Made by a program: the position numbers and the translations under genes. From contig JACRAL010000005.1 of assembly GCA_016213435.1 (NCBI GenBank), forward strand, positions 1 through 39,815: a stretch of 39,815 bases of DNA, read 5' to 3'. Of the stretch, positions 7,953-37,549 are shown one piece after another. The number at the start of each line of letters is the position of its first letter. Position 1 is the stretch's first letter. Below the pieces are notes generated by a model. The model searched no databases and was not told the origin of the DNA. It saw nothing but the letters and a program-made list of their open reading frames with translations. This stretch comes from Bacteroidota bacterium. GTDB lineage: Bacteria; Bacteroidota; Bacteroidia; Palsa-948.

Positions 7953-7956
7953 GAAA

Positions 7957-7984
7957 CAGTAGACAATTGGCAGTAGGCAAAAAA
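7957..7984. repeat. heptanucleotide tandem repeat (bcrC-bcrB gap)
   Basis: Degenerate 7-base units ACAGTAG, ACAATTG, GCAGTAG, GCAAAAA run in phase in the 70-base gap between bcrC and bcrB. The rest of the gap is A/T-rich (AAATAAATAATAAATAG). Confidence 0.55.
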
Positions 7985-8022
7985 ATAAATAATAAATAGT
8001 AAATCTAAAATTGTAATTCCCC

Positions 8023-9324: not shown

Positions 9325-9357
9325 AGTTTAAACACGAATAAAAAAGAATATATCCCA

Positions 9358-10779: not shown

Positions 10780-10789
10780 TTTTATTCTA

Positions 10790-10873
10790 GCCCTCATCCT
10801 CAATCCTTCTCCCACAGTGAGAAGGAAGTTCACGGTTATTTCCCTCTCCTGTGGGGGAGGGTAGGGTGAGGGT
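10790..10873. repeat. family A repeat, double copy (bcrA-bcrD gap)
   Basis: CCCTCATCCTCAATCC at the left pairs imperfectly with GGGTAGGGTGAGGG at the right, with inner hairpins CTTCTCCCACAGTGAGAAG and CCCTCTCCTGTGGGGGAGGG. The hairpins could also affect mRNA stability between bcrA and bcrD. Confidence 0.8.
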
Positions 10874-11114
10874 TATGCTTCTCATTTTCTCTCTTTAAAC
10901 ATGACTGTTGTCATAGTATGAAATGAGGAATGGTGTTTACTTTGTTGCAACAAAACCCCCATTGTAATGAATATAGTATTTGGTTACTCCTTCCCCCTTG
11001 CAAAGGCAAACGTAGTCCCGATATCTATCGGGAGCGAGCGTAGCTCATACACGCAGTGGCGGGGAATTTTTCTCTTCAAATTTCATAAAACAATTACTGA
11101 ATAAAATAAATTCT
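10874..11114. other. bcrA-bcrD intergenic remainder
   Basis: The 335-base gap between bcrA and bcrD holds repeat copies at 10790-10873 and 10988-11066. In the rest, A/T-rich sequence, I see no ORF of note, no clear TAnnTTTG box and no T-tract terminator. Confidence 0.5.
10988..11066. repeat. family A long-form repeat with nested CCCGAT hairpin
   Basis: CTCCTTCCCCCTTGCAAAGG at the left, an inner GAGCGTAGCTC-like module and a GGCGGGGAA right end mark a long-form copy. Nested in it is the perfect-arm hairpin TCCCGATATCTATCGGGA (11016-11033), a second palindrome type that recurs at 22790. Confidence 0.75.
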
Positions 11115-11954: not shown

Positions 11955-11964
11955 AAATTATTTC

Positions 11965-12078
11965 ATGTCAGATAAAAATTATTCGCTGAATTTTGATGCC
12001 AGAGAGAATGCAAGATGTTTGATCCTGTGCGACTTAGGGACTATGGGGGTTCCCATGCGCGTGCATTTCACTCATTGA
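11965..12078 (+). CDS. possible small ORF, 37 codons
   Basis: An ATG-started frame of 37 codons lies 10 bases after bcrD (MSDKNYSLNFDAREN...). It is too short for the ORF track and matches no family I recognise. Thauera-type bcr operons carry a ferredoxin gene near this place, but this peptide has only two Cys and no CxxCxxC motif. It may be a chance ORF or a gene remnant. Confidence 0.2.
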   Translation: MSDKNYSLNFDARENARCLILCDLGTMGVPMRVHFTH

Positions 12079-12094
12079 CAAGTTCTCTTGCAAA

Positions 12095-12116
12095 GGGCAG
12101 GCAGCAATGCCTGCCC
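12095..12116. repeat. perfect-arm hairpin GGGCAGGC/GCCTGCCC
   Basis: Eight-base arms GGGCAGGC and GCCTGCCC surround the loop AGCAAT between bcrD and the acyl-CoA synthetase gene. No T-run follows, so it is not a standard intrinsic terminator. It may be another dispersed palindrome or a transcript-processing or attenuation structure. Confidence 0.6.
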
Positions 12117-12164
12117 GAGCATCATCTCTTCGGTGAAATTCCAGAATAATAAAAATAGTTTATT

Positions 12165-14354
12165 ATGAATTATCCCGAAGCCAAAGAAAAAAAATCCACT
12201 TCAAAAATTGTTCATGAACTGGATTCACTTTTTAAACCAAAGTCCATTGCCATCATTGGCGCCTCTTCCAAAGAACTTTCTATCGGGAATGTTATTCTGA
12301 AAAATCTTGTTCACTTTGGTTACACAGGAAAAATATATCCCATCAATCCCAAGGAACCTGAAGTAAGAGGAATAAAAGCATATCCAACCATCTTTGATGT
12401 TCCGGATAATATTGATCTTGCTCACGTAATTATTCCCAGCAAATTTGTTCCGCAGATAATTGAAGATTGTGGCAAGAAAGGAATTAAATCCGTTATCATC
12501 AATTCGGCTGGCTTCAGCGAAATGGGAGAAGAAGGCAAAGCGCTTCAAAAAGCATTTTTAGCAAAAGCAAAAGAATATGGAGTACGAATATTCGGTCCTA
12601 ATTGCCAGGGAATTATCAATTGTGATCCTGAATACAATGCGTATTGTGATTTCACTTTTACTTTTCCGAAACCCGGTTCTATTTCCATTGTTGCATTGAG
12701 CGGTGGAGTAGGGGCATTCATCATGCAAAGTTTGTTCGATCTTGAGATCGGCATGCGCATGTACGCATCCAACGGAAATGCCTGCGATATTTCTATTTCG
12801 GATGTGGTGAATTATTACGGAGAGGACGAAGGAACAAAAGCCATCATTTTATATACCGAAGGATTTCACAATCCAAAAGAGTTTCTGGAAGTTGCAAAAG
12901 TTGTTGCAAAGAAAAAACCGATTCTTGCCATGAAAGCAGGACGTACCGAAGCAGGCGCGCAAGCTGCCGCTTCTCATACAGGTTCACTTGCAGGAGTTGA
13001 TATTGCAACAGAATTAATTTTTGAAAAAGCAGGAATACTTGCTTTTAATAATGAAGAGGAAATGTGCCAGGTGGCGATGGCATTTTCCACGCAGCCCATT
13101 CCGAAAGGAAACCGTGTGGGAATCATTACAAACACCGGAGGACCTGCTGTTATTGCAACCGATGAACTGGTGAGTGCGGGATTAGTACTTCCTCCGCTTT
13201 CAGACAAAGCAAAAAATATTCTAAAAACAACTTTACTTCCGGAAGCTACTATTGGAAATCCCATTGATGTGGTGGCAACAGGTGGAGGAACACATTTCCG
13301 CAGCGCTCTGGATGTGTTGATGAATGAGGAAACGATAGATTCCATCTACATAAATTTTGTTACCGCTCCTTTCACTGATACGGATGAAGTAGCCAGACAA
13401 ATCGTGGAAGTGAACAAGATGAAGAAGAAACCCATCGTTTGCAATTTCATGACCAACCTGAGTATGGAACGATATCAGGTTACTACTAAGATAATGAAAG
13501 AAGGTGGTGTTCCTTGCTACGCATTTCCAACCACCGCAGCAAAAGCACTTGGTGCTTTGTATAAATACCACAAAGTGCGCTCAAGGAATATTGGAGAAGC
13601 AAAAGTATTTAAAGAAGTAGATAAAGAAAAGGCTAAAAAAATTATTCAATCAGGTTCCTCCCCTTCGGGGAGGTCAGGTTGGGTCTTCCTCTCCTCTGAT
13701 AAAGTGTACACCTTGCTTTCCGCCTACGGGATTCCCGTTGCAGATTGGAGATTAGTTGACGATGTCGAAAAAACAGTTAAAGCAGCTACCGAAATCGGTT
13801 TCCCCGTTGTGATAAAGGCAGATGCAGAATCATTGGTACATAAAAGTGATCTCGGTGGAGTGGCTGTAAATATTAAGAATGCGGATGAAGTACGGGCAGT
13901 TGTTGAGAATATGAAAAGAAAGTTCGGACCATCCTCTGGCTCCTCCCCTTCGGGGAGGTCGGGTGGGGTGGCTGATCTGAAATTCTTCGTCCAGAAATTT
14001 CTTCCCGGTGGAAAGGAGCTTGTGGCAGGAGTAAGTGCACAGCGCGGATTGGAGCCACTTGTCATGTTTGGGCTCGGTGGAATATATGTGGAGGTGCTGA
14101 AAGATGTTGTTTTCAAAATAGCACCTGTAACAGAACTGGAAGCAAAAGAAATGCTTTCCTCCATCAAAGCTTCTAAGCTATTGGATGGCGTGCGTGGCGA
14201 GAAAGGAATTCACAAAGAAAGCGTTATAGAGATTATTCAGCGTCTTTCCCAATTGGTAATTGACTTCCCCGAAATTCAAGAAATGGATCTGAATCCCATC
14301 ATGGCTTTTGTGGATAAGGCGTTTGTGGTGGATGCAAGAATAAAAGTTCAATAA
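12165..14354 (+). CDS. acyl-CoA synthetase (ADP-forming), fused alpha-beta
   Basis: A 729-residue NDP-forming acyl-CoA ligase. Residues about 25-150 form the CoA-binding domain (SIAIIGASSKELSIGN, FGPNCQGIINCDP), then succinyl-CoA-ligase-like domains with the likely phospho-His near 271 in ASHTGSLAG, then a C-terminal ATP-grasp (VVIKADAESLVHKSDLGG, MDLNPIMAF). Such enzymes make ATP from acyl-CoA or activate acids, including aryl acids in archaeal examples. Lying inside the benzoyl-CoA cluster, it may activate benzoate or recover ATP from acetyl-CoA (inference). Two palindromic repeats are inserted in frame, one at about residue 497 at the alpha-beta junction and one at about 593 in the ATP-grasp part, both probably in loops. 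Confidence 0.87.
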   Translation: MNYPEAKEKKSTSKIVHELDSLFKPKSIAIIGASSKELSIGNVILKNLVHFGYTGKIYPINPKEPEVRGIKAYPTIFDVPDNIDLAHVIIPSKFVPQIIEDCGKKGIKSVIINSAGFSEMGEEGKALQKAFLAKAKEYGVRIFGPNCQGIINCDPEYNAYCDFTFTFPKPGSISIVALSGGVGAFIMQSLFDLEIGMRMYASNGNACDISISDVVNYYGEDEGTKAIILYTEGFHNPKEFLEVAKVVAKKKPILAMKAGRTEAGAQAAASHTGSLAGVDIATELIFEKAGILAFNNEEEMCQVAMAFSTQPIPKGNRVGIITNTGGPAVIATDELVSAGLVLPPLSDKAKNILKTTLLPEATIGNPIDVVATGGGTHFRSALDVLMNEETIDSIYINFVTAPFTDTDEVARQIVEVNKMKKKPIVCNFMTNLSMERYQVTTKIMKEGGVPCYAFPTTAAKALGALYKYHKVRSRNIGEAKVFKEVDKEKAKKIIQSGSSPSGRSGWVFLSSDKVYTLLSAYGIPVADWRLVDDVEKTVKAATEIGFPVVIKADAESLVHKSDLGGVAVNIKNADEVRAVVENMKRKFGPSSGSSPSGRSGGVADLKFFVQKFLPGGKELVAGVSAQRGLEPLVMFGLGGIYVEVLKDVVFKIAPVTELEAKEMLSSIKASKLLDGVRGEKGIHKESVIEIIQRLSQLVIDFPEIQEMDLNPIMAFVDKAFVVDARIKVQ
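13656..13684. repeat. family A repeat in acyl-CoA synthetase (first)
   Basis: The hairpin CCTCCCCTTCGGGGAGG plus a GTTGGGT tail encodes SSPSGRSGWV in frame, in the linker between the CoA-ligase part and the ATP-grasp domain. Confidence 0.85.
13941..13971. repeat. family A repeat in acyl-CoA synthetase (second)
   Basis: CCTCCCCTTCGGGGAGG plus GTGGGGTGG, nearly identical to the copy about 285 bases upstream. It is read in the same frame (SSPSGRSGGV) and falls between a helix ending KRKFGP and the strand FFVQKFLPG. Confidence 0.86.
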
Positions 14355-14408: not shown

Positions 14409-14981
14409 ATGCAACAATCAGTATTCGCTAAATATGTTCTTCCTTTTTTTCAATGGTATGCATTGATGATCGTACTGGCAATTATCATTGACTATTTTCT
14501 TCATCGTTATCATCTCATTGTTGTCGGTCGTTATCTTGGTTATCTGGGAACTTTCGTTGTGATCTTATCCTTTATTTATTCCTTACGCAAGCGGCAGTTA
14601 ATAAGATCGGGCTCGCCAAAAGAACTTTTGCTTCTGCATGAATACATGGCATGGGTTGGCTCTGTCATGATCCTTGTTCACGCAGGCATTCATTTCAACG
14701 CAATATTGCCATGGCTTGCCATCCTGATGCTGCTGATTGCCGTAGCAAGCGGACTGATCGGCAAATTTCTTTTAAAAAAATCTCATGATGCTTTGAAAGA
14801 GAAAAAGCAGGATTTGATGAATAAAGGAATCACCGAAGCAGAAGCAGAAAAAAATCTTTTTTTAGATTCCATTACAGTTGATCTGATGAGGAAATGGAGA
14901 GCCGTTCATCTTCCCATCACATTGCTGTTAGGCGTTTTGGTATTGATTCATATAATCACCATCGTAATGTTCAGCAAATGA
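14409..14981 (+). CDS. membrane protein, candidate b-type cytochrome
   Basis: A 190-residue integral membrane protein with about five hydrophobic segments (near residues 9-30, 41-60, 76-95, 97-120 and 165-187). His residues face the right places for heme b: HEYMAWVGSVMILVHAGIHF contains three in one helix region, and HLPITLLLGVLVLIH has a pair framing the last helix. This resembles cytochrome b561/ferric-reductase-like quinol-interacting anchors. It overlaps the decaheme cytochrome gene by 4 bases (ATGA), strongly suggesting that the two proteins form one electron-transfer module from the quinone pool to periplasmic hemes. Heme binding is inferred. Confidence 0.6.
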   Translation: MQQSVFAKYVLPFFQWYALMIVLAIIIDYFLHRYHLIVVGRYLGYLGTFVVILSFIYSLRKRQLIRSGSPKELLLLHEYMAWVGSVMILVHAGIHFNAILPWLAILMLLIAVASGLIGKFLLKKSHDALKEKKQDLMNKGITEAEAEKNLFLDSITVDLMRKWRAVHLPITLLLGVLVLIHIITIVMFSK

Positions 14982-15865
14982 AAAGAATAGTTGTTTTAGT
15001 GATCGTTGCCTTATGCGCATGTATGGTATACCTGTTTCCTCAGGAGATGATCAATCCCGGAGATCTGGTAGCAGGACATCAGCACCTGAAAGACAAATGC
15101 CTCGCATGTCATCATCCCTTTTGGGGAATAGCTTCCGAAAAATGTATCAGCTGCCATAAACTCTCCGATATCGGTAAGGATACACTCATGTCAAATGATT
15201 CGACTTCAAACAAGAGCAAAACATCTTTTCATCTTAATTTTTCAAATCAGGAATGTACCGGCTGTCATACCGATCATAAAGGACTCAAGCCCGGTATTTC
15301 TTTAAGCAGATTTGATCATAAATTTTTATCGGGAGCGGAGAATGCGCAATGCATCAGCTGTCACAGCAAACCTACAGATGATGTTCATGCGCAATTATCT
15401 ACTGCCTGCAACAACTGCCATAACACGCAAGGATGGAGATCTTTTGTATCCTTTGATCATGCCATGATACAGGGCGCAGATAAAAACAATTGCATTACCT
15501 GTCATCAGCAGCCAAAAGCAACTTATCATAATCAATTCAATACCGATTGCGCAAAATGCCACATCACCAGCAAATGGCGGCCCTCTTCTTTTGATCATTC
15601 ATCGTATTTTATACTCGACCAAAACCATAATGCCAATTGCATTACCTGCCACTCCGATAATAACTTCAGCGCATACACCTGTTATGGCTGCCACGAACAT
15701 TCGCAGGGAAAAATGGAGAGCAAACATTACGAGGAAGGAATTACAAATATTATTAATTGTGTAAGATGCCATAAAAGCGGCAATGAACATGAAACCGAAG
15801 GCGGCTCGCGCTCAAATGAAGGAGGAGAGGGACACGGAAAACACGAAGATCATGATGATGATTAA
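14978..15865 (+). CDS. decaheme c-type cytochrome
   Basis: The ORF track starts this at 14894, but the ATG at 14978, overlapping the previous stop as ATGA, gives a clean N-terminal signal or anchor (MKRIVVLVIVALCACMVYLF). The mature part has ten CxxCH heme motifs (CLACH, CISCH, CTGCH, CISCH, CNNCH, CITCH, CAKCH, CITCH, CYGCH, CVRCH) and many extra His for bis-His ligation, including repeated FDH and H..C spacings like cytochrome c3/doubled-CXXCH families. The C-terminus is His/Asp/Glu-rich (GKHEDHDDD), a possible metal-binding tail. It is probably periplasmic and accepts electrons from the membrane partner encoded upstream. Confidence 0.88.
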   Translation: MKRIVVLVIVALCACMVYLFPQEMINPGDLVAGHQHLKDKCLACHHPFWGIASEKCISCHKLSDIGKDTLMSNDSTSNKSKTSFHLNFSNQECTGCHTDHKGLKPGISLSRFDHKFLSGAENAQCISCHSKPTDDVHAQLSTACNNCHNTQGWRSFVSFDHAMIQGADKNNCITCHQQPKATYHNQFNTDCAKCHITSKWRPSSFDHSSYFILDQNHNANCITCHSDNNFSAYTCYGCHEHSQGKMESKHYEEGITNIINCVRCHKSGNEHETEGGSRSNEGGEGHGKHEDHDDD

Positions 15866-18373: not shown

Positions 18374-18817
18374 ATGAGCGAGAAAACATCTTTAGAAGGC
18401 CGCATATTCAAACTTTCCACCGGAGAAAAGATCGCCCCTGCTGATCTTGAAAAACTAATCGGGGAGGTATGTCATTACATTAAATATGTTGCTGTCAGCG
18501 AGGATGAAAAAGAAAATCCTGTCGCCTTGATCTTTCCGAATAAAAAATTACTGGATCAGCCCGATTATAAATTAACTCCGGAGGAAGGTTGTTTTTGTCC
18601 GCGCAGTCTCGATGAACTTGGCCGGTGTCTGACAGGTTGTTTGAAACTGGTGAATCGTCAGATAGCAGATGATTCCTTAAAATTAAAATCAGCAGCAATA
18701 ATTAATAATGAAAATTATTCTGCCGATATTGTGAATAAATATAAAGCATTGCTAAGGGAAAAACACGGGGACAAAGTTCCTGCCGATGAAGAGATTTATT
18801 TTATAAAGAATGTTTGA
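18374..18817 (+). CDS. orphan AMP-binding C-terminal domain-like protein
   Basis: A 147-residue soluble protein. Its start (GRIFKLSTGEKIAPADLEKL) and following VAVSEDEKENPVALIFPN resemble the C-terminal lid domain of long-chain AMP-forming acyl-CoA synthetases, where GRxxxxxKLSNGxxxxPxxIE is followed by xxVVVxGDxxxxLxALIxP. The later KLVNRQIADDSLKLKSAAI matches the xxVNxxLxxxxxIKxxxI stretch. The large N-terminal adenylating domain is absent and there is no sign of it upstream. It may be a free-standing acyl-CoA-handling or regulatory domain. The match is by eye, so moderate confidence only. It overlaps no other gene and precedes the cytochrome block. Confidence 0.5.
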   Translation: MSEKTSLEGRIFKLSTGEKIAPADLEKLIGEVCHYIKYVAVSEDEKENPVALIFPNKKLLDQPDYKLTPEEGCFCPRSLDELGRCLTGCLKLVNRQIADDSLKLKSAAIINNENYSADIVNKYKALLREKHGDKVPADEEIYFIKNV

Positions 18818-18825
18818 GGGATAAG

Positions 18826-20370
18826 ATGAACCAGATGCCCTACTTAAATGAGCTTCGCTCGCAAGCTCCGCTTGTCCAAAGGGGAGGACTTTCGCGCGTA
18901 ACTCTCCCCCTTTGGGGGAGTTGGAGGGGGCTACCCAAGAAGCCGATACTATATCTCTCATTAGCATGTATCGCTTTTCTTGTCATTACTTGCCGGAAGG
19001 ATGAACAAGGTTCTGATTACAAAGGTTATCCGCTTGAAGTAGGAAAAATAATTCTTACTAAATGTGCCATTGCCGGCTGCCATACGGATAAAAGCAAGGA
19101 AGCCAGCAATGGTTTGTCTTTGGAAAGCTGGAGCAGTTTATTTAACGGAAGCCGTTACGGAAACACGGCTGTAATTCCTTACCGTTCGGATATTAGTTTC
19201 CTTTCCTATTTTATAAATACTTATAGTGATCTGGGTATTTCCATTCCTCCCGCCATGCCTCCGGGGAAAGACCCTCTGACGAGAGAAGAAGTAATTACCG
19301 TTCGCGACTGGATTAACTTAGGCGCACCGGCACGCAACGGACTGATCCCTTTTTCCGACATGGCACACAGAAGAAGAATGTTTGTTGTGAATCAGGGCTG
19401 CGATAATGTTTTCATCATCGATGCCGCAACCGGTTTGATCATGCGTAGTGTTGATATAGGTGTCAGCCCTTCCATCGAATCTCCTCATTTTATTGAAATA
19501 TCGCCTGACGAAGAATATTTCTATACATGTTTTTTTGCCGGCAGTGTATTTCAAAAGTTTAACATCAATGACGGTACTTTGGCAGGGGAAGCAAACATTG
19601 GTTCGGGGCAATGGAGCGTTTTCGAAATCACTCCCGATGGGAAACGCGCTTTTGTGGTTGACTGGAGTGCAAATGGTTCCATTGCGGTGATGGATTTGGA
19701 AACCATGACTCTGCTGGTAAAATGGCAGGGCAACGGATTGCTGCAATATCCTCATGGTACAGGCATGAAAGGAAATAATCTTTATGTAACATCCCAGCCC
19801 GGAAATTTTTTCTATAAGATTGATTTTACGGATATCTATAATCCAAATATCTCGCAAATCCCATTGCAGGCAAATGCAAACTCACATGAAATTCATTTCT
19901 CGCAGGATGGAAGCGAATATGCTGTTAGTTGTGTTGGATTAAATGAGATATGGTTCTTCAATGCTTCGAACGATGCATTGATTGCCAAAGTTGCTACCGG
20001 AAAAGGTCCTGAAGAGCCGCACTATGCAGGAGATACTTTGTTTGTTACCTGTCCGAATGATGATGTTACATTTCCCGGAAAAATTGGTGCTGTATCCATC
20101 ATTAATGGAAAAACCCATACATTAATTAAAAATATATATACCGGATGGGAGCCGCACGGCATTGTGCCCGATGTACAGGGAAGAAAAGTTTGGATCCTGC
20201 ACCGCAATATTGCAGGCGGAGGACCGCCACCGCATCATTCTTCTTCTTGCTCCGGAAGAAACGGCTACATGACCGCGATTGATTTGAATACATTGGACTT
20301 GATACCAAATCTAAAACCTGAATTATCTGTTGATCCGTATTTTGGGGCAATTGTTGGACATCATCATTAA
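18826..20370 (+). CDS. lipoprotein with c-heme site and YVTN-type beta-propeller
   Basis: The ATG at 18826 is the first plausible start. The first 35-odd residues are encoded by a palindromic repeat, followed by a normal lipoprotein signal (LYLSLACIAFLVITCRKD). Residues about 80-175 look like a cytochrome-type domain with an unusual heme site, KCAIAGCHTD (C-x4-CH), and a possible distal Met in PPAMPPGKD. From about 180 to the end is a seven-bladed YVTN/NHL-type propeller (MFVVNQGCDNVFIIDAATG, RAFVVDWSANGSIAVMDLE). The C-terminus is His-rich (PPPHHSSSC, VGHHH). It is probably anchored to a membrane facing the periplasm or outside, in the electron-transfer block. Confidence 0.75.
   Translation: MNQMPYLNELRSQAPLVQRGGLSRVTLPLWGSWRGLPKKPILYLSLACIAFLVITCRKDEQGSDYKGYPLEVGKIILTKCAIAGCHTDKSKEASNGLSLESWSSLFNGSRYGNTAVIPYRSDISFLSYFINTYSDLGISIPPAMPPGKDPLTREEVITVRDWINLGAPARNGLIPFSDMAHRRRMFVVNQGCDNVFIIDAATGLIMRSVDIGVSPSIESPHFIEISPDEEYFYTCFFAGSVFQKFNINDGTLAGEANIGSGQWSVFEITPDGKRAFVVDWSANGSIAVMDLETMTLLVKWQGNGLLQYPHGTGMKGNNLYVTSQPGNFFYKIDFTDIYNPNISQIPLQANANSHEIHFSQDGSEYAVSCVGLNEIWFFNASNDALIAKVATGKGPEEPHYAGDTLFVTCPNDDVTFPGKIGAVSIINGKTHTLIKNIYTGWEPHGIVPDVQGRKVWILHRNIAGGGPPPHHSSSCSGRNGYMTAIDLNTLDLIPNLKPELSVDPYFGAIVGHHH
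18850..18932. repeat. family A long-form repeat at 5' end of propeller cytochrome
   Basis: An inner module AGCTTCGCTCGCAAGCT precedes the hairpin CTCCCCCTTTGGGGGAG and a TTGGAGGGGGCTA end. Translated in frame upstream of the lipoprotein signal, it makes an atypically long n-region (LNELRSQAPLVQRGG...). Confidence 0.85.
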
Positions 20371-20385
20371 AACTACACATCACGA

Positions 20386-20805
20386 ATGAAACTCTGCCAA
20401 ATGTCAACTGCTAACTGCCAACTGGTTTTTTTGCTTTTTGTTTTTTGCTTTTTATTTATTTCCTGCCACAAAGCAGGAACAGGCGGCAATGCCTCATTGA
20501 TGGTTTATCCACAGCATCACGATGTTCCAATCATCAATCATGTCGGATATCCTGACACAGTGTTTCTGAAATTTAATGTGGATGAACTTTCCGGCACAAG
20601 ACCTTCGGATTACGATGTGTTTTATGTGGGTACACCGAGAGAAGATTTTATTCATTGTGATGGGTTGAAAGCAGGAAAATATTTTGTGTATGCCGTGGGA
20701 TATGACAGTTTTTATATGCAACGGGTTTCAGGTGGAATACCTTTAAAAATAAAATATTCACAGCGAAAAGAAATGATCATGGTAACTGTTCCGGTTGTAG
20801 AATAA
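20386..20805 (+). CDS. small lipoprotein of the cytochrome block
   Basis: A 139-residue lipoprotein with signal ending FLFISCHKAG. The mature part looks like a single beta-sandwich (DTVFLKFNVDELSG, DYDVFYVGTPRED, GKYFVYAVGYDSFY) of a kind often seen in Bacteroidota outer-membrane lipoproteins. No heme motif is present. It lies 15 bases after the propeller cytochrome and 5 bases before the cytochrome-barrel gene, so it is almost certainly co-transcribed and could be an assembly or docking partner of the barrel. Its signal peptide is partly encoded by a heptanucleotide repeat. Confidence 0.65.
   Translation: MKLCQMSTANCQLVFLLFVFCFLFISCHKAGTGGNASLMVYPQHHDVPIINHVGYPDTVFLKFNVDELSGTRPSDYDVFYVGTPREDFIHCDGLKAGKYFVYAVGYDSFYMQRVSGGIPLKIKYSQRKEMIMVTVPVVE
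20403..20425. repeat. heptanucleotide repeat in lipoprotein signal peptide
   Basis: Three 7-base units GTCAACT, GCTAACT, GCCAACT are read as STANCQL in the n-region of the small lipoprotein's signal peptide. Confidence 0.65.
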
Positions 20806-20810: not shown

Positions 20811-22739
20811 ATGAAAAAGGAGATAAATAGTATCAGGTATCAGGTATTAAGTATCGCATTCATTATTTTTTACTTTTTATTTTTTACTTGTGCATCCCAG
20901 CCATGGTTGGTTCCGCAAGGATGGTCTGTTAAAAGAAATCCAACCCCTTTAGGCAGTGTATCCGTTCAGGCGGGAAAAAATATTTATCGTGCCAACTGTA
21001 TTATCTGCCATGGTGAAGGAGGAAAAGGAAATGGAACATTGGCTCTGAGTTTAAATCCCCGTCCTGCAGATCATACAAGCAAAAAATTTCAGCAGCAGAA
21101 AGATGGAGAACTGTTTTATAAAATCATCACGGGCAGGAACGCAATGCCGTCTTTCAAACAAGTGCTTTCTGAAAATGAGATATGGAGCGTTATTAATTTT
21201 ATTCGCACACTGGAAGTGAAAGCAAAACCAGTTTCACCTAAATCTACTGCTACTGCTACTGCTACTGTCGCTGCCTCTGTTCAATCTAATCAGCAAAAGA
21301 ATATTTTTAAAGATACTTCATCGGAAAAGCAAGCTGCCTCAGTTGTAAAAAGGCTTGATACACTTTCAATTCATCAGGAAAATATCTCGCAAACAGTAAT
21401 TCTTCAAAAAAGAATAGCCGATACTTCATCTTTTGTTTCTGCTATTGCTTCCGATACTATTGCCATTGATAGTCTGACTCTAAATAATCCAAACGAAGAT
21501 TCGAAAGAAGAAAGACGAAAATTTCTTCTCAGCGGTTCTGCCAACTTGGATATTAATATTGACGGAAGAAAATTCAACTCTGCCGGTATTGCGGTTGGGT
21601 TCATGCCCGTTATTCTCTGGAAGCCATCCAAAAATTTATTCTTTGAATCTCATTTTCATATTATGGCCGGCTCAGGCACATCACAAAGCAACACATCTTC
21701 GTCCTCCGGAAGTATGTCGGGGATGTTGATGCGTATTGGAACTCCTCCTCCTACGGTCCAACATAGCGGGATGAATTCAACACCCGCAGTAACTTCATCC
21801 ACTTCTACTTCGTCAACAATATCCATGGCAAGTATTATGTTGGCGTATGCCGATTTGGTTTATTTCATTAATCCTTATGTAACGCTTACCGGTGGAATAT
21901 TTCTCTCTCCTTTCGGTTTGTATCCCGAGCGCCTGCACGCGCCCTGGTTAAACCGTTTGCCCGATGCTCCTGCAGGAATGGGTAATGAACAAGTTCTTCC
22001 TGAAACTGAATTGGGTGTTCAGTTCAGAGGAGGAATCCCCATTGGAAAAACAAAACTGGTTTATGCCACGTATATTTCTAACGGACCTTTTTTAGTTGAC
22101 GACACAAGCGGAAATGCCGGCAAACTTTCTTTCAATAATCTGGTTGACAATAACAAGAATAAAGCGCTTGGAGGGAGAATCGGTTTTTTCCCGTTGCCGA
22201 ATAACCGTTCTCTGGAAATAGGATTTTTTGGACAACGCGCTCGGGTTGGGCAGGATGCAACACCGCATGCGGGTGTGCAGGCTTTGCTTTATGGTTCCGA
22301 CATTTCCTTTCATCATTATTTCAGGTTCATTAAAGGAACAATCGATATGAAAGGACAGCACTGCAAAGTATCATTGGATAAAGTTTATTATAAAGCCAAT
22401 CCCATGGAGGTGATTAATGTTCCGGCAGAAGATGTAAATCTTAAAGATTCTACTTATCGGTTTAATAACGTAACGGAATTATATTTTATAATGATGTCAT
22501 ATCGACCCACTGCTTCTGAACATTTTTTGAAGAACGTAGAATATAATTTCAGGTATGATTATTTAAAAGAGCCTGCCTTCGCAAGGTGGAATATAAGTGC
22601 ATCGCGTTTAACGATGGGAATTACTTATTGGCTGGAAAGCCGCTCTGCAATGAAACTGGCGTATCAGATCAGTATGCCCCAAAATATATTTTCTAAAAAT
22701 CAGAATATGTTAATGCTCCAATGGGTAATAGGCTTATAA
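20811..22739 (+). CDS. cytochrome c fused to outer-membrane beta-barrel
   Basis: A 642-residue protein. The signal peptide ends FYFLFFTCASQ, possibly a lipobox. Residues about 45-145 form a class I cytochrome c domain with CIICHGEGGKGNG at about 63 and a distal Met in GRNAMPSFKQVLSENE. A Thr/Ser/Ala-rich linker (about 145-235) follows. From about 240 to the end, alternating polar/aromatic strands separated by Gly- and Asn-rich turns (FNSAGIAVGFMPVILW, VTLTGGIFLSPFGLYPE, VQFRGGIPIGKTKLVYATY, MLMLQWVIGL) look like a porin-type barrel. Such a protein could put a heme at or in an outer-membrane pore, comparable in layout to Cyc2 but with a full-length cytochrome domain. Barrel topology is inferred. 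Confidence 0.7.
   Translation: MKKEINSIRYQVLSIAFIIFYFLFFTCASQPWLVPQGWSVKRNPTPLGSVSVQAGKNIYRANCIICHGEGGKGNGTLALSLNPRPADHTSKKFQQQKDGELFYKIITGRNAMPSFKQVLSENEIWSVINFIRTLEVKAKPVSPKSTATATATVAASVQSNQQKNIFKDTSSEKQAASVVKRLDTLSIHQENISQTVILQKRIADTSSFVSAIASDTIAIDSLTLNNPNEDSKEERRKFLLSGSANLDINIDGRKFNSAGIAVGFMPVILWKPSKNLFFESHFHIMAGSGTSQSNTSSSSGSMSGMLMRIGTPPPTVQHSGMNSTPAVTSSTSTSSTISMASIMLAYADLVYFINPYVTLTGGIFLSPFGLYPERLHAPWLNRLPDAPAGMGNEQVLPETELGVQFRGGIPIGKTKLVYATYISNGPFLVDDTSGNAGKLSFNNLVDNNKNKALGGRIGFFPLPNNRSLEIGFFGQRARVGQDATPHAGVQALLYGSDISFHHYFRFIKGTIDMKGQHCKVSLDKVYYKANPMEVINVPAEDVNLKDSTYRFNNVTELYFIMMSYRPTASEHFLKNVEYNFRYDYLKEPAFARWNISASRLTMGITYWLESRSAMKLAYQISMPQNIFSKNQNMLMLQWVIGL
20829..20856. repeat. heptanucleotide repeat in signal peptide of cytochrome-barrel
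   Basis: Four in-phase 7-base units (AGTATCA, GGTATCA, GGTATTA, AGTATCG) encode SIRYQVLSI at the start of the signal peptide. Confidence 0.75.
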
Positions 22740-22777: not shown

Positions 22778-23074
22778 ATGAAAAAATGCCTTAATTTCCC
22801 GATAGTTTTCGGGATTAAGTTTTTTGTGATCCTGATGGTGATTTTGGTTGCGGGTTGTACGCTGACTAAAGAAGCAAAAGATAGAAAAGAACACATAAGC
22901 AATTCGGGGCAGAAATTATGGGAGCAAAATTGTTCTCGCTGTCACAACAGTCCTTCTCCTGCTTCTTTCAGCGATGCGGAATGGGATGTGGTTGGATCAC
23001 ATATGCGTGTGCGCGCTTATCTCACAGGAAAAGAAGCAGATGCAATAATTAAATTTTTGAAATCAATCAATTAA
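22778..23074 (+). CDS. monoheme cytochrome c lipoprotein
   Basis: The ATG at 22778 gives a standard lipoprotein signal (FFVILMVILVAGCTLTK); the track start at 22721 lies inside the previous gene. The mature part is about 75 residues with one heme site, NCSRCHNSPSPASF, and candidate axial Met in VGSHMRVRAYLTG. It ends with the class I cytochrome helix DAIIKFLKSIN. It follows the cytochrome-barrel gene by about 40 bases and is the last gene of the electron-transfer block, probably a small shuttle. A palindrome (22790-22819) encodes part of the signal peptide. Confidence 0.8.
   Translation: MKKCLNFPIVFGIKFFVILMVILVAGCTLTKEAKDRKEHISNSGQKLWEQNCSRCHNSPSPASFSDAEWDVVGSHMRVRAYLTGKEADAIIKFLKSIN
22790..22819. 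repeat. family B hairpin (CCCGAT) in lipoprotein signal peptide
   Basis: CTTAAT and TTCCCGA at the left pair with TCGGG and ATTAAG at the right. The palindrome encodes LNFPIVFGIK in the signal peptide of the monoheme lipoprotein. The same core is nested in the repeat at 10988. Confidence 0.72.
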
Positions 23075-23121: not shown

Positions 23122-24963
23122 ATGAAAGATATAGTTTCAGGAAATAAAAAGAAAAAAGTTGCCGTCATCGGCATTGGTCCTGTAGGAATGATCCTCGCAG
23201 TTCATTTGCAGGAAGCCGGTTGTGAGGTTGCAGTTTGCGACCTTGATAAAATGAAGATTAACCTTGTAAAAAAAGATGGTGTGGAGCTGACAGGTGAGAT
23301 CAAAAAGAGAACGGTTTTCAAAAATGTTTTTAGTTCCATTGCAGATATCGAACAATTCAATCCTGATCTGCTGGTGGTTTGCTTGAAAACCACTCACCTT
23401 CCTTCTGCTATGAAAGAGATTGAAAAATTAAGCAACTCTTCCATGGGGGTTATCTGCGCAATGAATGGAATTGATGTGGAGAAGATGGTCTCAAAAGTGA
23501 TCGGAGAAAGCCGATCGTTCCGGATGGTAATAAATTATGCAGGAAATCTTACCGCTCCAAACATAACTAAAGTGACTTTTTTCACTCCTCCGAATTACTT
23601 GGCTTCCGTCAATGATTCAAGAATGGCAGAAGTGGAAGAAATTTGTTCTCTGCTGAAAAAAGTTTCGCTTGAAACAAAAGCCATTACCTCATTTGAATTG
23701 CTCAAAGCTACCTGGGAGAAAACAATTCTGAATTCCTCGCTGAGCGCTTTATGCGGAGTGGGAAGAATGACCATGTCAGAAGCAATGAGCAATTCCGATA
23801 CGGTTGAACTTGTGGAGCAGATTATTGAAGAAGCGGTGGAAGTTGCCGCAGCCGAAAAAATAAAGTTTGAAGATGATTTTGTTCGCAAATGTCTGCGATA
23901 TTTGGGTAAAGCAGGAAATCACTTTCCTTCACTGGCGGTGGATCTGTTGAACAATCGTCCTACAGAAATTGATTGGCTCAATGGTAAAATTGTGGAGTAC
24001 GGTCGCAAGCATTACATCCGCACTTCGCTCAATCTTACTTTCACAAACATGGTGAAAGCGATGTCGGATAAAAATTTTTCATCCTCTGTTCAAACTGCAA
24101 AGGTAGCTATCGCTCAGAATTTAATGGCTAAAGAAAAGCCTTCGAAGAACGGAAGTTCAAAATCGCATACTTATTATTTAGGAGTTGATCTGGGTTCAGC
24201 ATACACGAAGTTTTCCGTTATTGATGAAAATGAAAAAATAGTTTTTCAAACTGCGCTCAAAACTCTGAACCGTGATAAAATTTCTGTTCGTCACGTGATC
24301 GAAGCGGTGAAAAAGGAATATCCAATATCTCATACGTGTGCTACCGGCTACGGACGAAAACATTTTCCGGATGCAGATGTTGTTAAAACCGAATTGAATT
24401 GCGCTGCACTTGGAGTTTCAAAATATTTTCCGGGAGAAAAAAACATCATTGACATTGGCGGAGAAGATATTAAAGTAATCAAATGCAAAGCGGATAACAA
24501 CATTGAAAATTTTTACCTGAACGATAAATGCGCTTCAGGTACAGGTTCTTTTATTACAGAAGTAGCGGAACGAGCAGACATTCGAATTACCGATATGAGC
24601 GACCTCGCAGGAAAATCAACCTTCCGCAAGGAACTGAACAGTTTTTGCACGGTGTTCGCAAAAACTGAGATCATGAGCTGGATGTTTGAAGGACTTCCGA
24701 TCGAAGACATTGCAAAAGGAATTTATATTTCCATCGTCAATCGCATAACGAAACTGAGAATAGATCCCAATGCACCGATTTATATGATAGGAGGAGTGAT
24801 TGCGCACCATCCTGCTCTAAAAGGTTTATTGCAGGAACGTTACAAAAAAGACGTTGGCGTGGTAGAAAAATCCCAGTTTGTTGTTTCGCTTGGCGCTGCA
24901 TTATATGCTAAAGAGTACACCCCGACCCTAAAGGGAGAAAGACAAATAGAAACCCTGCCTTAA
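23122..24963 (+). CDS. fusion: ketopantoate-reductase-like dehydrogenase + BcrA/D-type ATPase
   Basis: A 613-residue two-domain protein. Residues about 11-320 are an ApbA/PanE-type dehydrogenase: NAD(P) motif VAVIGIGPVGMILAVHL, VVCLKTTHLPSA, and the conserved Lys/Asn segment LLKATWEKTILNSSLSALCG. After a hinge (AKEKPSKNGSSKS), residues about 352-605 are an ASKHA activator ATPase of the BcrA/D-HgdC family: YLGVDLGSAYTKFSV, NIIDIGGEDIKVIK, and both cluster-bridging Cys in NDKCASGTGSF and NSFCTVFAKTE. All expected motifs are present in both halves. I know no described protein of this architecture. It may couple a redox step to activation of the BcrB-like protein at 16994 (inference). The last residues come from a repeat. 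Confidence 0.85.
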   Translation: MKDIVSGNKKKKVAVIGIGPVGMILAVHLQEAGCEVAVCDLDKMKINLVKKDGVELTGEIKKRTVFKNVFSSIADIEQFNPDLLVVCLKTTHLPSAMKEIEKLSNSSMGVICAMNGIDVEKMVSKVIGESRSFRMVINYAGNLTAPNITKVTFFTPPNYLASVNDSRMAEVEEICSLLKKVSLETKAITSFELLKATWEKTILNSSLSALCGVGRMTMSEAMSNSDTVELVEQIIEEAVEVAAAEKIKFEDDFVRKCLRYLGKAGNHFPSLAVDLLNNRPTEIDWLNGKIVEYGRKHYIRTSLNLTFTNMVKAMSDKNFSSSVQTAKVAIAQNLMAKEKPSKNGSSKSHTYYLGVDLGSAYTKFSVIDENEKIVFQTALKTLNRDKISVRHVIEAVKKEYPISHTCATGYGRKHFPDADVVKTELNCAALGVSKYFPGEKNIIDIGGEDIKVIKCKADNNIENFYLNDKCASGTGSFITEVAERADIRITDMSDLAGKSTFRKELNSFCTVFAKTEIMSWMFEGLPIEDIAKGIYISIVNRITKLRIDPNAPIYMIGGVIAHHPALKGLLQERYKKDVGVVEKSQFVVSLGAALYAKEYTPTLKGERQIETLP

Positions 24964-25042
24964 AAGGGGAAAAGAAAATGACAAATACAAATAATGCATT
25001 AATAACTACAATCAACACATCCTCTCCCTTTAGGGTAGGGGT
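24920..25042. repeat. family A inverted pair spanning a stop codon
   Basis: CCCCGACCCTAAAGGGAGA (24920-24938) is inverted as TCTCCCTTTAGGGTAGGGG (25024-25042). The left copy encodes the last residues of the fusion protein (YTPTLKGERQ); the right copy lies just before the thiolase start. Confidence 0.82.
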
Positions 25043-25054
25043 AAAACTATTATT

Positions 25055-26317
25055 ATGAAAGGATTTCACAACAAAGAAAAAGGTATCGGTATTTTGTATG
25101 ATGATATCTATCTGGTAAACGGAATGCGTACGCCATTCGGAAAATTATGCGGCACCATCGGACAAGTTTCTCCTACTGATCTTGGAATTTATGCTGCTAA
25201 AGCTGCAATGGAAAAATCAGAAATAAAACCAACAGATATTGATCAGATTTTTGTCGCCAACATCGGGCAGAGCTCACCTGACACTTATTTTCTTCCGCGT
25301 CATATCGGTTTGTATGCCGGAATTCCGTTTGGTATTCCATCGGTAATGCTTCAGCGCATTTGTGGTTCAGGATTTGAAACGATCATTGCAGGTGCAGAAC
25401 AAATTTCATTGGGAAAAGCAGGCATTTCACTTTGCGGTGGTACGGAAAATATGTCGCTTTCGCCAACAGCAGCTTTCGGAAACAGAATGGGATATGCACT
25501 CGGAAAACCCGGATTTGTGGATATGCTTTGGGAAGCGCTGAACGATACGGCTGCAGTTCCGATGGGATGCACGGCAGAAAATGTTGCTAAGAAACATAAC
25601 ATCACAAAGAACGATGCGAATGAATTTGCGAAACTTTCGGTTGACCGTGCTATGGCTGCTATAGAAAGCGGATTTTATAAAGAGGAGATTCTCCCAATGA
25701 ACACCACCGTTTTTGAAGCGGAAGGTTTGAAGCCAAGAAAAGTTTTTCTTCCGAGAGGCGTAAAAGATTTTGCGAAGGATGAACACATTCGCGCTTCCAC
25801 AATGGAAGAGATGGCAAAACTTCCTCCCGTATTTATGAAAGACGGAGTGCAAAATGCTGCTAACTCCAGCGGAATAGTGGATGGTTCTGCCATGGTGGTG
25901 GTTGCGCATAAAAATTCTGTGAAAGAAAAAAATATGAAGCCGCTTACCAAAGTGGTCGCTTCGGCAACCAGCGCTCTGGATCCGAGTGTGATGGGACTGG
26001 GACCAGTTCCTGCAATAAAATTAATTCTTGAGATGACGGGATTAAAAGTTTCGGATATAGGATTGGTGGAGATCAATGAAGCTTTCGCAGCTCAGTTCAT
26101 AGGATGTGAAAGAGAATTGGGTCTTGACAGAAATAAATGCAATGTGAACGGTGGTGCGATTGCGATCGGTCATCCGCTCGCTGCAACAGGAGCACGTTTG
26201 TCGCTCACCATTTCAAGAGAAATGAATTTAAGAAAAGTGAAATACGGAATTGCTTCGGCTTGCATTGGCGGAGGACAAGGAACTGCAATCTTATTTGAAA
26301 ATGTGACCCATCCCTAA
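25055..26317 (+). CDS. thiolase (acetyl-CoA acyltransferase family)
   Basis: A 420-residue thiolase. The nucleophilic Cys is in LQRICGSGFETI; the C-terminal catalytic motifs are NEAFAAQFIGCE, GGAIAIGHPLAATGAR and IASACIGGGQGTA. It would cleave a 3-oxoacyl-CoA, most likely 3-oxopimelyl-CoA to glutaryl-CoA plus acetyl-CoA, given that had, oah and dch follow immediately. The N-terminus is somewhat extended (MKGFHNKEKGIGILYDD) before the usual thiolase start (IYLVNGMRTPFGK). A repeat supplies the last residues (THP) and the stop codon. Confidence 0.9.
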   Translation: MKGFHNKEKGIGILYDDIYLVNGMRTPFGKLCGTIGQVSPTDLGIYAAKAAMEKSEIKPTDIDQIFVANIGQSSPDTYFLPRHIGLYAGIPFGIPSVMLQRICGSGFETIIAGAEQISLGKAGISLCGGTENMSLSPTAAFGNRMGYALGKPGFVDMLWEALNDTAAVPMGCTAENVAKKHNITKNDANEFAKLSVDRAMAAIESGFYKEEILPMNTTVFEAEGLKPRKVFLPRGVKDFAKDEHIRASTMEEMAKLPPVFMKDGVQNAANSSGIVDGSAMVVVAHKNSVKEKNMKPLTKVVASATSALDPSVMGLGPVPAIKLILEMTGLKVSDIGLVEINEAFAAQFIGCERELGLDRNKCNVNGGAIAIGHPLAATGARLSLTISREMNLRKVKYGIASACIGGGQGTAILFENVTHP

Positions 26318-26338
26318 CCCTTCACGAAGGGAAGGGAA
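26306..26338. repeat. family A repeat at thiolase stop codon
   Basis: ACCCATCCCTAACCCTTC faces GAAGGGAAGGGA. The repeat gives the thiolase its last codons and TAA stop, so it probably replaced the original 3' end. Confidence 0.78.
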
Positions 26339-26368
26339 TATTGAAAAATTTAACAAATAATAAAAATT

Positions 26369-27484
26369 ATGGAAAAGACAAAAAATGAAACACACACAGT
26401 TTCCTCCCCTTCGGGGAGGAGTAAGGTGGGGATCCTATATCAATGGCAAATGACGGAACCTGATAAGGAGTTCAAGCTGACGGAAATTAATTTTCCTGAT
26501 CTGAAAGAAGGAGAAGTATTGGTGAAAGTTGCCGGCTGCGGAGTATGTCATACCGACATAAGTTTCTGGCACCACGGTGTGCAAACAAAACATGCGCTTC
26601 CGCTTACGCTGGGGCATGAGATCAGCGGAGTGGTGGTTGGCGGAGATGCAAAATGGCTGAATAAACCTGTGATCATTCCGGCTGTTCTTCCCTGCGGAGA
26701 ATGCGAGCTTTGCAAAAAAGGAAGAAGCAACATCTGCAGAAACCAACTCATGCCGGGTAATGATTTTCACGGAGGATTTGCTTCGCATATAAAAGTGTCT
26801 TCAAAATTTTTGTGTGCGGTGCCTGATGCTGTGTTGAAAAAATATCCGCTCGAGAATTTATCTGTGATTGCCGATGCGATTTCAACGCCTTATCAAGTAG
26901 TGAAAAAATCCGAACTGGAAGCAGGCGATCTGGCAATCATCATCGGAGTGGGCGGGGTAGGAGTGTACGGTGCGCTCATCGCGAAGATTTTCGGAGCAAA
27001 AGTGATCGCGCTCGATATCAACGATGAAAAATTAAACATTGCAAAAGCAAACGGAGTTGATGCGGTTCTGAATATAAAAGGACTGGATGCAAAAGCCATC
27101 AAAGACAAAGTGAAAGAACTTGCCAAAGAAATCAAAGCTCCGAAAACCGGCTGGAAAATTTTTGAGATCAGCGGCACAAAATCCGGACAGGATATGGCAT
27201 TCAATCTTGTCACATTCACCTCCACGCTTTCCATTGTTGGATTCACGATGGATAAAGTGGAAGTTCGTTTGAGCAACCTAATGGCATTTGATGCGAAACT
27301 CATAGGAACCTGGGGCTGCCGTGCAGAATTATATCCCGAAGTATTGGAACTTGTCGCTAACGGAAAACTGAAGATCGAGCAATTTGTGCAAACTTTCCCT
27401 ATGTCAAAAATAAATGAAGTGTTTAAAAATACATTGGAATACAAATACACAAAGCGTTCGGTGATGGTGCCGGATTTTAATTAA
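26369..27484 (+). CDS. had: 6-hydroxycyclohex-1-ene-1-carbonyl-CoA dehydrogenase
   Basis: A 371-residue zinc-dependent medium-chain alcohol dehydrogenase. Catalytic zinc site: CGVCHTDISFWHHG and LTLGHEISG. Structural zinc site: CGECELCKKGRSNICR. NAD-binding: IIGVGGVGVYGALIAKIFGA. In the benzoyl-CoA pathway Had oxidises the Dch product to the 6-oxo compound used by Oah. The identification rests on the family plus the had-oah-dch gene order. A palindromic repeat is inserted in frame after about 11 codons (SSPSGRSKVG), lengthening the N-terminus ahead of YQWQMTEPDK. Confidence 0.88.
   Translation: MEKTKNETHTVSSPSGRSKVGILYQWQMTEPDKEFKLTEINFPDLKEGEVLVKVAGCGVCHTDISFWHHGVQTKHALPLTLGHEISGVVVGGDAKWLNKPVIIPAVLPCGECELCKKGRSNICRNQLMPGNDFHGGFASHIKVSSKFLCAVPDAVLKKYPLENLSVIADAISTPYQVVKKSELEAGDLAIIIGVGGVGVYGALIAKIFGAKVIALDINDEKLNIAKANGVDAVLNIKGLDAKAIKDKVKELAKEIKAPKTGWKIFEISGTKSGQDMAFNLVTFTSTLSIVGFTMDKVEVRLSNLMAFDAKLIGTWGCRAELYPEVLELVANGKLKIEQFVQTFPMSKINEVFKNTLEYKYTKRSVMVPDFN
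26402..26432. repeat. family A repeat in had N-terminus
   Basis: CCTCCCCTTCGGGGAGG followed by AGTAAGGTGGGGA is in frame (SSPSGRSKVG). The core is identical to the two copies in the acyl-CoA synthetase. Confidence 0.87.
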
Positions 27485-27502
27485 TTAATAATATTTATAA
27501 AA

Positions 27503-28600
27503 ATGGAAACAAAAAATCATAACATCGTAGAACACAGTTTCAAAGAGATTCTCTTTGAAAAACGTCCTTGTTTAAATCATGACGGCACGCCCGTAAAAGA
27601 TTTATACAATGCGTGGATTATTCTGAATAATCCCAAGCAATTTAATTCTTACACCACTGCTGCAGTAAAAGAGATTATTCTTGCTTTTGCCGAAGCATCG
27701 AACGACCGCAGCGTAGTTGCAGTTGTTTTCACCGCAGTGGGTGATAAAGCATTTTGCACCGGAGGAAATACAAAAGAGTATGCAGAATATTATGCGGGAA
27801 ATCCTCAGGAATATTCTCAGTATATGCGTTTATTTAATGATATGGTAAGCGCAATTTTAAAATGCGAAAAGCCTGTTGTCTGCCGTGTGAACGGAATGCG
27901 TATCGGTGGTGGACAGGAGATCGGCATGGCTTGCGATTTCACTATTGCACAAGACATGGCTCGTTTCGGTCAGGCAGGACCGAAGCACGGAAGCGCTGCG
28001 ATTGGCGGTGCAACGGATTTTCTACATCTCTATGTTGGAATTGAAAGAGCCATGATGTCGCTCACGCTTTGTGAACCTTGGACTGCGCATCAGGCATATA
28101 ATTTCGGAATGATAACCGATATTGTTCCTGCGTTGAAAGTGGATGGAAAGTTTGTAGCGAACCCTTTGGTTGTGATAGATAAACAAACGGATGAATTCGG
28201 AAAGCTTATTTTCGGCACTATGAAAACAGGAGAAGAACTTAAGAAAGGAAAAGAAGTGTTGGTAAAAGGTGTTGTTGATCTTTCATTATTGGATGAAGCG
28301 GTGAATAAACTGATTGCAAAACTGCTGCACACCTTCCCCAATTGCACTTCAAAAACTTTATCGGAAGTGCGCAAGAAAAAACTGGAGCATTGGGATAAGA
28401 ATAAAGAAAGCAGCCGCGAATGGCTTGCGCTCAACATGATGACCGAAGCGAAAGCAGGTTTCCGTGCGTTCAACGAAGGGCCGAAAGATAATCGCGAAGC
28501 GGATTTCATCAAGCTTCGCCAGCTGCTTGCTCAAGGTCACGAATGGAACGATGAGCTTCATAAAATAATTTCTCCTCAATTTCAAAAAGCTAAAGTCTGA
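27503..28600 (+). CDS. oah: 6-oxocyclohex-1-ene-1-carbonyl-CoA hydrolase
   Basis: A 365-residue crotonase-superfamily protein, longer than ordinary enoyl-CoA hydratases (about 260) and close to known Oah lengths. The oxyanion-hole regions are DKAFCTGGNTKEYAEYY and RVNGMRIGGGQEIGMACDF; the following FGQAGPKHGSAAIGGATDF is characteristic of the Oah group. Oah adds water and hydrolytically opens the ring to 3-hydroxypimelyl-CoA. It starts 18 bases after had and ends 3 bases before dch, so it is tightly coupled. The C-terminal extension (VRKKKLEHWDKNKESSREW) is also typical of this family. Confidence 0.92.
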   Translation: METKNHNIVEHSFKEILFEKRPCLNHDGTPVKDLYNAWIILNNPKQFNSYTTAAVKEIILAFAEASNDRSVVAVVFTAVGDKAFCTGGNTKEYAEYYAGNPQEYSQYMRLFNDMVSAILKCEKPVVCRVNGMRIGGGQEIGMACDFTIAQDMARFGQAGPKHGSAAIGGATDFLHLYVGIERAMMSLTLCEPWTAHQAYNFGMITDIVPALKVDGKFVANPLVVIDKQTDEFGKLIFGTMKTGEELKKGKEVLVKGVVDLSLLDEAVNKLIAKLLHTFPNCTSKTLSEVRKKKLEHWDKNKESSREWLALNMMTEAKAGFRAFNEGPKDNREADFIKLRQLLAQGHEWNDELHKIISPQFQKAKV

Positions 28601-28603
28601 ACT

Positions 28604-29377
28604 ATGCAAAAAGTAAAAACTACTTACACCCACGATAATTCCGTTGCAAGAATAGTTCTTGACGATGGAAAAGGAAATGTGCTTGACCATGTAATGATGG
28701 AAGAGTTGCAGGAATTGTTTAATTCTTTCTCGAAGAATAACAATCTGAAACTTCTTGTGTTTGAAGGAGCAGGGAAACATTTTTCTTTCGGTGCGAGTGT
28801 GGAAGAGCACAAAAAGGATTCTGCCACTGCCATGCTTCGTGGATTTCACCAATTGTTCTATTCTCTGCGCGATCTTTCCATTCCAACGGTGGCAAAGATC
28901 AGCGGACAATGTCTCGGTGGAGGATTGGAACTTGCATTGATGTGCAATGTCCTATACGCGGATAAAACCGCCAAGCTAGGCCAGCCCGAAATTGTGCTGG
29001 GCGTATTTCCTCCGCCTGCTTCTATTTTGCTGCCTGAAAAAATTGGTTTTGCGCGTGCGGAAGAATTGCTCATCACCGGAAGAACTATTTCTGCCGATGA
29101 GGCAAAAGCGCTCGGACTGGTGAATGAATTATTTGCTGATAAAGAAACTATGGAAGCCGAAATTGCAAAGTGGATAGAACTGAACATTGTTCCTAAGAGT
29201 GCTTCCTCATTGCGCTTTGCAGTAAAAGCATCCCGTGCAAAATTAAATCATGTTATTTCTAATTTCTTACCGCAGTTGGAAGCTTTGTATGTAAAACACC
29301 TCATGGAAACACACGATGCGAATGAGGGAATAAATGCTTTTCTTGAAAAGAGGAAGCCTATTTGGAAAAACAATTAA
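28604..29377 (+). CDS. dch: cyclohexa-1,5-diene-1-carbonyl-CoA hydratase
   Basis: A 257-residue crotonase-superfamily hydratase, the expected length for Dch. Substrate and oxyanion motifs: GAGKHFSFGASVEEHK and KISGQCLGGGLELALMCN, followed by AKLGQPEIVLGVFPPPAS, where the VFPPPAS stretch fits the dienoyl-CoA hydratase group. It adds water to the product of benzoyl-CoA reductase. It is the last gene of the pathway cluster; 48 bases later the ruvB gene ends on the opposite strand. Confidence 0.9.
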   Translation: MQKVKTTYTHDNSVARIVLDDGKGNVLDHVMMEELQELFNSFSKNNNLKLLVFEGAGKHFSFGASVEEHKKDSATAMLRGFHQLFYSLRDLSIPTVAKISGQCLGGGLELALMCNVLYADKTAKLGQPEIVLGVFPPPASILLPEKIGFARAEELLITGRTISADEAKALGLVNELFADKETMEAEIAKWIELNIVPKSASSLRFAVKASRAKLNHVISNFLPQLEALYVKHLMETHDANEGINAFLEKRKPIWKNN

Positions 29378-37505: not shown

Positions 37506-37549
37506 TAAAAAATTGCTTCTTGTATTTAAAACACACATCTTACAATTCT

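Follow-up and report, generated by a model that had tools for sequence, protein, structure and literature searches.

The window, by which we mean the whole 39,815-nucleotide stretch of DNA that was analyzed, comes from an uncultured Bacteroidota bacterium and carries at positions 20811 to 22739 a gene that encodes a cytochrome c fused to a predicted porin (642 aa from an ATG start, uninterrupted by stop codons; this gene and the annotated features described below are on the forward strand). Its first 32 residues (20811 to 20906) are a putative signal sequence, assigned by eye as the hydrophobic stretch ahead of the conserved W.(V/A)P motif with which the cytochrome domain opens. Residues 33 to 137 (20907 to 21221) are a class I monoheme cytochrome c domain, based on Pfam, a PDB match, alignment, and structure prediction. 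Pfam detects Cytochrome_CBB3 (9e-14) and Cytochrom_C (7e-9) over residues 52 to 134, and the nearest solved chains in the PDB search are cytochrome c552 (9vr0 and 7o9u, 3e-16). The heme motif is CIICH at residues 63 to 67 (20997 to 21011), and the distal ligand, Met112 (21144 to 21146), is conserved in 22 of 22 aligned paired sequences; in the paired alignment (A5), neighboring in-frame cytochrome and barrel ORFs were translated through the intergenic stop(s) as an alignment aid only. With a CXXCH motif, a downstream Met ligand, and an above-cutoff profile match, the fused protein passes as a class I cytochrome c, and it differs from others of this class in that its heme domain is joined to a barrel.

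The cytochrome domain is followed by a linker of 97 aa, residues 138 to 234 (21222 to 21512), in which Ser, Thr, and Ala make up 38% of the residues, more than in the cytochrome domain (17%) or the barrel (22%). In the AlphaFold2 model of the full 642-aa protein (pTM of 0.58), the linker has a pLDDT of <50 and is predicted to be disordered, in agreement with the Ser/Thr/Ala-rich linker of ~90 residues described in the initial annotation. Residues 235 to 642 (21513 to 22736) are predicted to be a 16-strand porin-type barrel. AlphaFold2 modeling of this domain with 68 aligned sequences gave 16 strands with a pLDDT of 86.3 and a pTM of 0.83, and a Foldseek search with the barrel model returned the 16-strand general porins OmpC, OmpF, and OmpK36 (E of ~1e-11, query TM of ~0.55). 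Based on the strand count and these matches, the barrel is probably closed. The layout first read for positions 20811 to 22739, a class I cytochrome, a linker, and a probable outer-membrane barrel, is therefore borne out by Pfam, AlphaFold2, and Foldseek.

A Pfam search of the fused protein gave no match for the window barrel, and a PDB profile search with the barrel was likewise negative. For Porin_O_P (PF07396; curated cutoff, 20.9 bits), there is no match in the window, while one relative (L017) scores 20.1 bits and an Alteromonas homologue scores 23.8 bits. The barrel family has conserved loop-3 and loop-4 motifs (PFG...ERLHP.WIN and DNN.NKA.GGR), and charged strand residues are conserved as well. 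The window member also has a Ser/Thr/Met/His-rich insertion (21672 to 21824), a segment of 58 residues compared with a family median of 9. Since both barrel termini are taken as periplasmic, this segment is predicted to be extracellular loop 2.

Immediately downstream is a gene for a second small cytochrome, which we call the mini-cytochrome (22778 to 23074), with the lipobox VAGC, the heme motif CSRCH (22931 to 22945), and a conserved His-Met. A start at 22778 is likelier than the listed start at 22721 because it clears the upstream stop. Across the mini-cytochrome alignment, C-x-R-C-H, a Trp, and the His-Met are invariant, and the lipobox is present in Bacteroidota members; a PDB search with the mini-cytochrome gave nothing significant. 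On the other side of the fused gene are a small lipoprotein-like protein (20386 to 20805), which is conserved with the propeller and the barrel, and the propeller itself, a lipoprotein-like YVTN beta-propeller (18814 to 20370) that is a candidate surface cytochrome. The CX4CH motif of the propeller, CAIAGCH (19063 to 19083), is conserved in five genomes, and propeller relatives with this unusual heme-type motif were also seen at L152:9912-11369 and L146:4524-5966. Farther upstream, a multiheme c-type cytochrome (Cytochrom_CIII-like; 14894 to 15865), a possible electron partner, adjoins a membrane protein without a family match (14409 to 14981).

The wider surroundings contain benzoyl-CoA reductase-like genes (6789 to 11954; subunits C and B score above the NCBIfam cutoff, and A and D score below it) and Had-, Oah-, and Dch-like benzoyl-CoA pathway genes (26369 to 29377; Had and Oah above the cutoff, Dch below). 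Taken together, the genes at positions 6789 to 14354 and 23122 to 29377 make up a near-complete cluster for ATP-dependent (Bcr-type) benzoyl-CoA degradation, here in a member of the Bacteroidota, and a cytochrome-rich block occupies the middle of the cluster. An ORF at 23122 to 24963 joins a ketopantoate-reductase-like domain to a BadF/BcrA-type ATPase domain, a fusion that is also present in three other genomes (G002, G004, and G006). A 147-aa stub at 18374 to 18817 matches only the C-terminal AMP-binding domain; a 617-aa ORF in G002 ends in the same way, and the stub may be the remnant of a CoA ligase. Short inserts (SSPSGRSG and PSPxGEGxGVRS-like) recur in the translations of 12165 to 14354, 26369 to 27484, 33419 to 35671, 37520 to 38734, and 38731 to 39489 and are probably interspersed repeats inside coding genes. 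By eye, the RecJ-like ORF at 33419 has an inserted stretch that resembles a DUF559-type domain. ORFs of 85 to 185 aa lie antisense to coding genes (22092 to 22361 and similar) and show no sign of being genes, and an Rfam search of the window gave no match. Elsewhere in the same genome there is no other strong member of the barrel family; there are a cytochrome-assembly gene (PF01578) and NrfD genes, one of them close to an isolated cytochrome c from the family of the window domain.

A scan of the genome collection yielded 80 loci, from which 77 full-length barrels were counted. Judged by record titles, the loci include Bacteroidota, Calditrichota, Chlorobiota/Ignavibacteriota, Neomarinimicrobiota, Fibrobacteria, and Planctomycetota, so that a search for the family outside the lineage of the window, which the initial annotation had called for, finds it in several phyla. 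Homologues from the same genus are barrels of ~410 to 440 aa, mostly with a separate cytochrome c gene of ~145 aa upstream. Counting only CXXCH genes that encode <350 aa and lie immediately upstream on the same strand, such a gene, of ~140 aa, accompanies 71 of the 77 full-length barrels, compared with 8 of 507 (1.6%) other genes of the same loci, a comparison of related rows from which no probability is to be read, at loci picked by the barrel alone. A mini-cytochrome of ~90 aa is the next gene after the barrel in 67 of 77 cases. The window has all three parts in this order, the fused gene at 20811 followed by the mini-cytochrome. The barrel is thus normally the product of a separate gene, and the window ORF is a fused member of its family. 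A same-family cytochrome c at another locus (L002:128-1108, G000:C145) appears, by eye, to share one ORF with a SnoaL/NTF2-like domain.

The cytochrome ORF and the barrel ORF are in one frame at 23 loci, with only stop codons and a short spacer between them, which would make fusion easy. The neighbors of the unit differ from locus to locus. NrfD-like genes are carried by 12 loci, mostly with a 4Fe-4S partner, and many loci have heavy-metal neighbors (CusA/CusB-type, HMBD, P-type ATPase, DUF302, and CopC/CopD); a Pfam tally of neighboring genes shows mixed contexts with no single partner. Cultured carriers of the split form in the scan are Marivirga sericea, Roseivirga seohaensis, Fulvivirga kasyanovii, and Hydrotalea flava, which makes the unit open to testing.

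The cytochrome-barrel fusion is present in at least three Bacteroidota genomes: that of the window, G004, and G031, the last of which belongs to another family. An uninterrupted ORF for this fusion occurs in both G004 and G031, which rules out an assembly artifact as its source. The window and G004 proteins are 78% identical in the barrel, 70% in the cytochrome, and 42% in the linker, and the linker is 97 aa in the window, ~105 aa in G004, and ~32 aa in G031. In G031, genes for a molybdopterin oxidoreductase and a 4Fe-4S protein precede the fusion. In all three genomes, a separate mini-cytochrome adjoins the fusion. A plasmid search turned up gammaproteobacterial members of the barrel family with other combinations of the same parts. 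A Legionella anisa plasmid protein (L158:6528-8804) has three cytochrome c domains joined to the same barrel, and its gene is followed by one for a protein that combines a mini-cytochrome with a cytochrome c. On Alteromonas and Glaciecola plasmids, the barrel is followed by a mini-cytochrome-cytochrome c fusion, and a NiFe hydrogenase adjoins the Alteromonas unit. The recurrence of these parts both as neighbors and as fusions in differing combinations is a strong hint as to which proteins touch and, as an argument from gene arrangement, strongly suggests that the barrel, cytochrome c, and mini-cytochrome form one physical complex.

In the barrel tree, the three fused barrels and three propeller-associated barrels without a cytochrome form one clade (100/99) that is nested among split ones. 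Within it, the G031 fusion stands apart from the window/G004 pair, with the cytochrome-less barrels in between. A single clade of fused barrels is not rejected by the AU test (p = 0.18), and the three fused domains group in the cytochrome-domain tree (80/67). Either one fusion and two losses or two fusions would fit the history in Bacteroidota. G002 and G006 have the barrel at the equivalent operon position without a cytochrome domain, and no mini-cytochrome was found beside it as far as the contigs reach.

Based on the gene order, the fusions, and the predicted structures, we propose, with a probability of roughly 55%, that the window protein represents, in fused form, a conserved outer-membrane redox module with three components and that electrons probably cross the membrane through it. 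We infer the single complex, the placement of the hemes, the direction, the substrate, and indeed the passage of electrons across the membrane at all. The components would be a periplasmic class I cytochrome c, in the window tethered by a flexible linker of ~97 residues; a 16-strand porin-type barrel; and a mini-cytochrome of ~60 residues that is encoded next door and has a lipobox in Bacteroidota. Cytochrome maturation and BAM insertion put the heme domain in the periplasm, where the linker would let it reach the mouth of the barrel or a partner. At the periplasmic mouth, the tethered cytochrome might receive electrons from the quinone pool, through NrfD/FeS modules in many relatives and perhaps through the multiheme cytochrome at 14894 in the window. 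The next carrier would be the mini-cytochrome, located either within the barrel or on it, from which the electrons would go to an external acceptor or to the candidate surface cytochrome at 18814, the propeller. The opposite direction would be equally possible.

The idea that the heme domain could reach the pore holds in part: the linker has the length needed to reach the mouth, but on geometric grounds a full class I cytochrome of ~100 residues and ~30 Å should not enter a 16-strand barrel, which has a backbone radius of ~17 Å. Since it is too wide, it would remain at the periplasmic mouth, about the thickness of the membrane from the outside, and the remaining distance would have to be bridged by the mini-cytochrome or the surface propeller cytochrome. 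By the same geometry, the mini-cytochrome of ~60 residues might fit the pore at least partly. The invariance of the heme ligands in aligned members of both the cytochrome and the mini-cytochrome points to a module of this kind. Against it, the barrel can exist alone, as in G002 and G006, and the heavy-metal efflux neighbors suggest other roles. A broader proposal, which we put forward tentatively and think somewhat less likely to be right than wrong, is a trans-outer-membrane conduit built from monoheme cytochromes only, in which a barrel plugged by the mini-cytochrome is fed by the tethered class I cytochrome. Such a conduit would occur in Bacteroidota, Chlorobiota/Ignavibacteriota, Calditrichota, Fibrobacterota, and gammaproteobacterial plasmids, with single chains assembled more than once.

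The heavy-metal genes that adjoin many loci would also fit a porin for a redox-active metal (copper or iron) or small molecule that the cytochromes oxidize or reduce at the periplasmic exit, with no electrons crossing the outer membrane. The general-porin fold and weak Porin_O_P matches, the conserved charged strand residues and loop-3 and loop-4 motifs, and the Met/His-rich outer loop of the fused clade are all consistent with such a porin. However, the NrfD, molybdoenzyme, and hydrogenase neighbors indicate respiratory electron flow, strict pairing with two different cytochromes exceeds what a simple porin would need, and the window belongs to a cluster for aromatic degradation rather than to a metal island. 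On balance, we consider a metal or solute porin unlikely, if a serious competitor.

The position of the gene between benzoyl-CoA genes, together with the cytochrome-less barrel of the equivalent operon in G002 and G006, would suit an aromatic-acid uptake porin with a leftover cytochrome domain. This is improbable given that both the window and G004 have intact heme ligands and an intact mini-cytochrome and that the cytochrome domain has kept 70% identity compared with 42% in the linker, which indicates constraint on the cytochrome and argues against a leftover. Moreover, the propeller, small lipoprotein, and barrel set is also found in G031 away from benzoyl-CoA genes. Still less credible is a conduit made of one protein, as the initial annotation suggested, in which the fused heme in or below the pore is sufficient by itself. 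The domain order is that of Cyc2, the 16 strands are those predicted for Cyc2, and the long linker would allow the heme domain to reach the pore; in contrast, the relatives are mostly split genes, with the barrel in the middle of a three-gene unit, all three Bacteroidota fusions retain the separate mini-cytochrome, and the full class I heme domain is too wide for the pore. The window fusion is real and uncommon and is best seen as one state of the three-part module.

Cyc2 combines a single N-terminal heme domain with a 16-strand porin and is marked by the motifs AXPXFAR[Q/K][T/Y] and PXL (PMC8406198). A regular-expression search of the whole fused protein found no AXPXFAR[Q/K][T/Y] upstream of CXXCH, and PXL is absent 4 aa downstream of CXXCH, where the protein has GEGGKGNGTLALS. 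The absence of both diagnostic heme-flanking motifs rules out membership in Cyc2 and agrees with the suggestion in the initial annotation that the protein may be an independent solution. It resembles Cyc2 and Cyt572 in having an N-terminal monoheme c-type domain and a C-terminal 16-strand porin in one polypeptide (PMC8406198, PMC10654088), and by this analogy it may work like Cyc2. In contrast to the short domain of Cyc2/Cyt572, however, it has a full class I cytochrome, along with a linker of ~97 aa, a separate mini-cytochrome partner, and a barrel family that is mostly unfused. From Porin_O_P and the general porins OmpC and OmpF, which it resembles in barrel fold and, for some relatives, in weak Porin_O_P profile matches, the family differs in its strict pairing with cytochromes, and the window barrel differs in having no Pfam match.

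The porin-cytochrome c complexes MtrCAB/MtoAB/PioAB, OmbB-OmaB-OmcB, PCC3, and PCC4 are encoded by adjacent barrel and periplasmic cytochrome genes and are proposed to provide a path for electrons across the outer membrane (PMC5566968). The family described here shares their architecture of a barrel gene beside a c-type cytochrome gene (71 of 77 homologues, and fused in the window), to which those complexes often add a further outer cytochrome. Their cytochromes are multiheme, with sheath porins of 26 to 28 strands in the Mtr type, whereas the Bacteroidota core unit combines single-heme cytochromes with a 16-strand barrel; in the window, both dedicated cytochromes have a single CXXCH, and there is no multiheme cytochrome within the barrel. 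A study that relied on multiheme cytochromes or on similarity to Cyc2 has reported both Cyc2 homologues and candidate new porin-cytochrome clusters from Bacteroidetes (PMC6344600), and as far as that text shows, these clusters differ from the three-part unit. We found no published description of the unit in a partial coverage of the literature, in which an earlier description could have been missed. The module is apparently widespread and probably undescribed, and it is easily overlooked because its barrel has no Pfam family and its cytochromes are generically named. To our knowledge, the outer-membrane electron conduits described so far either have multiheme cytochromes as wires within large barrels or consist of Cyc2. 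A small module that pairs a porin with two cytochromes of one heme each would add a third design, in phyla in which outer-membrane electron transfer is poorly understood.
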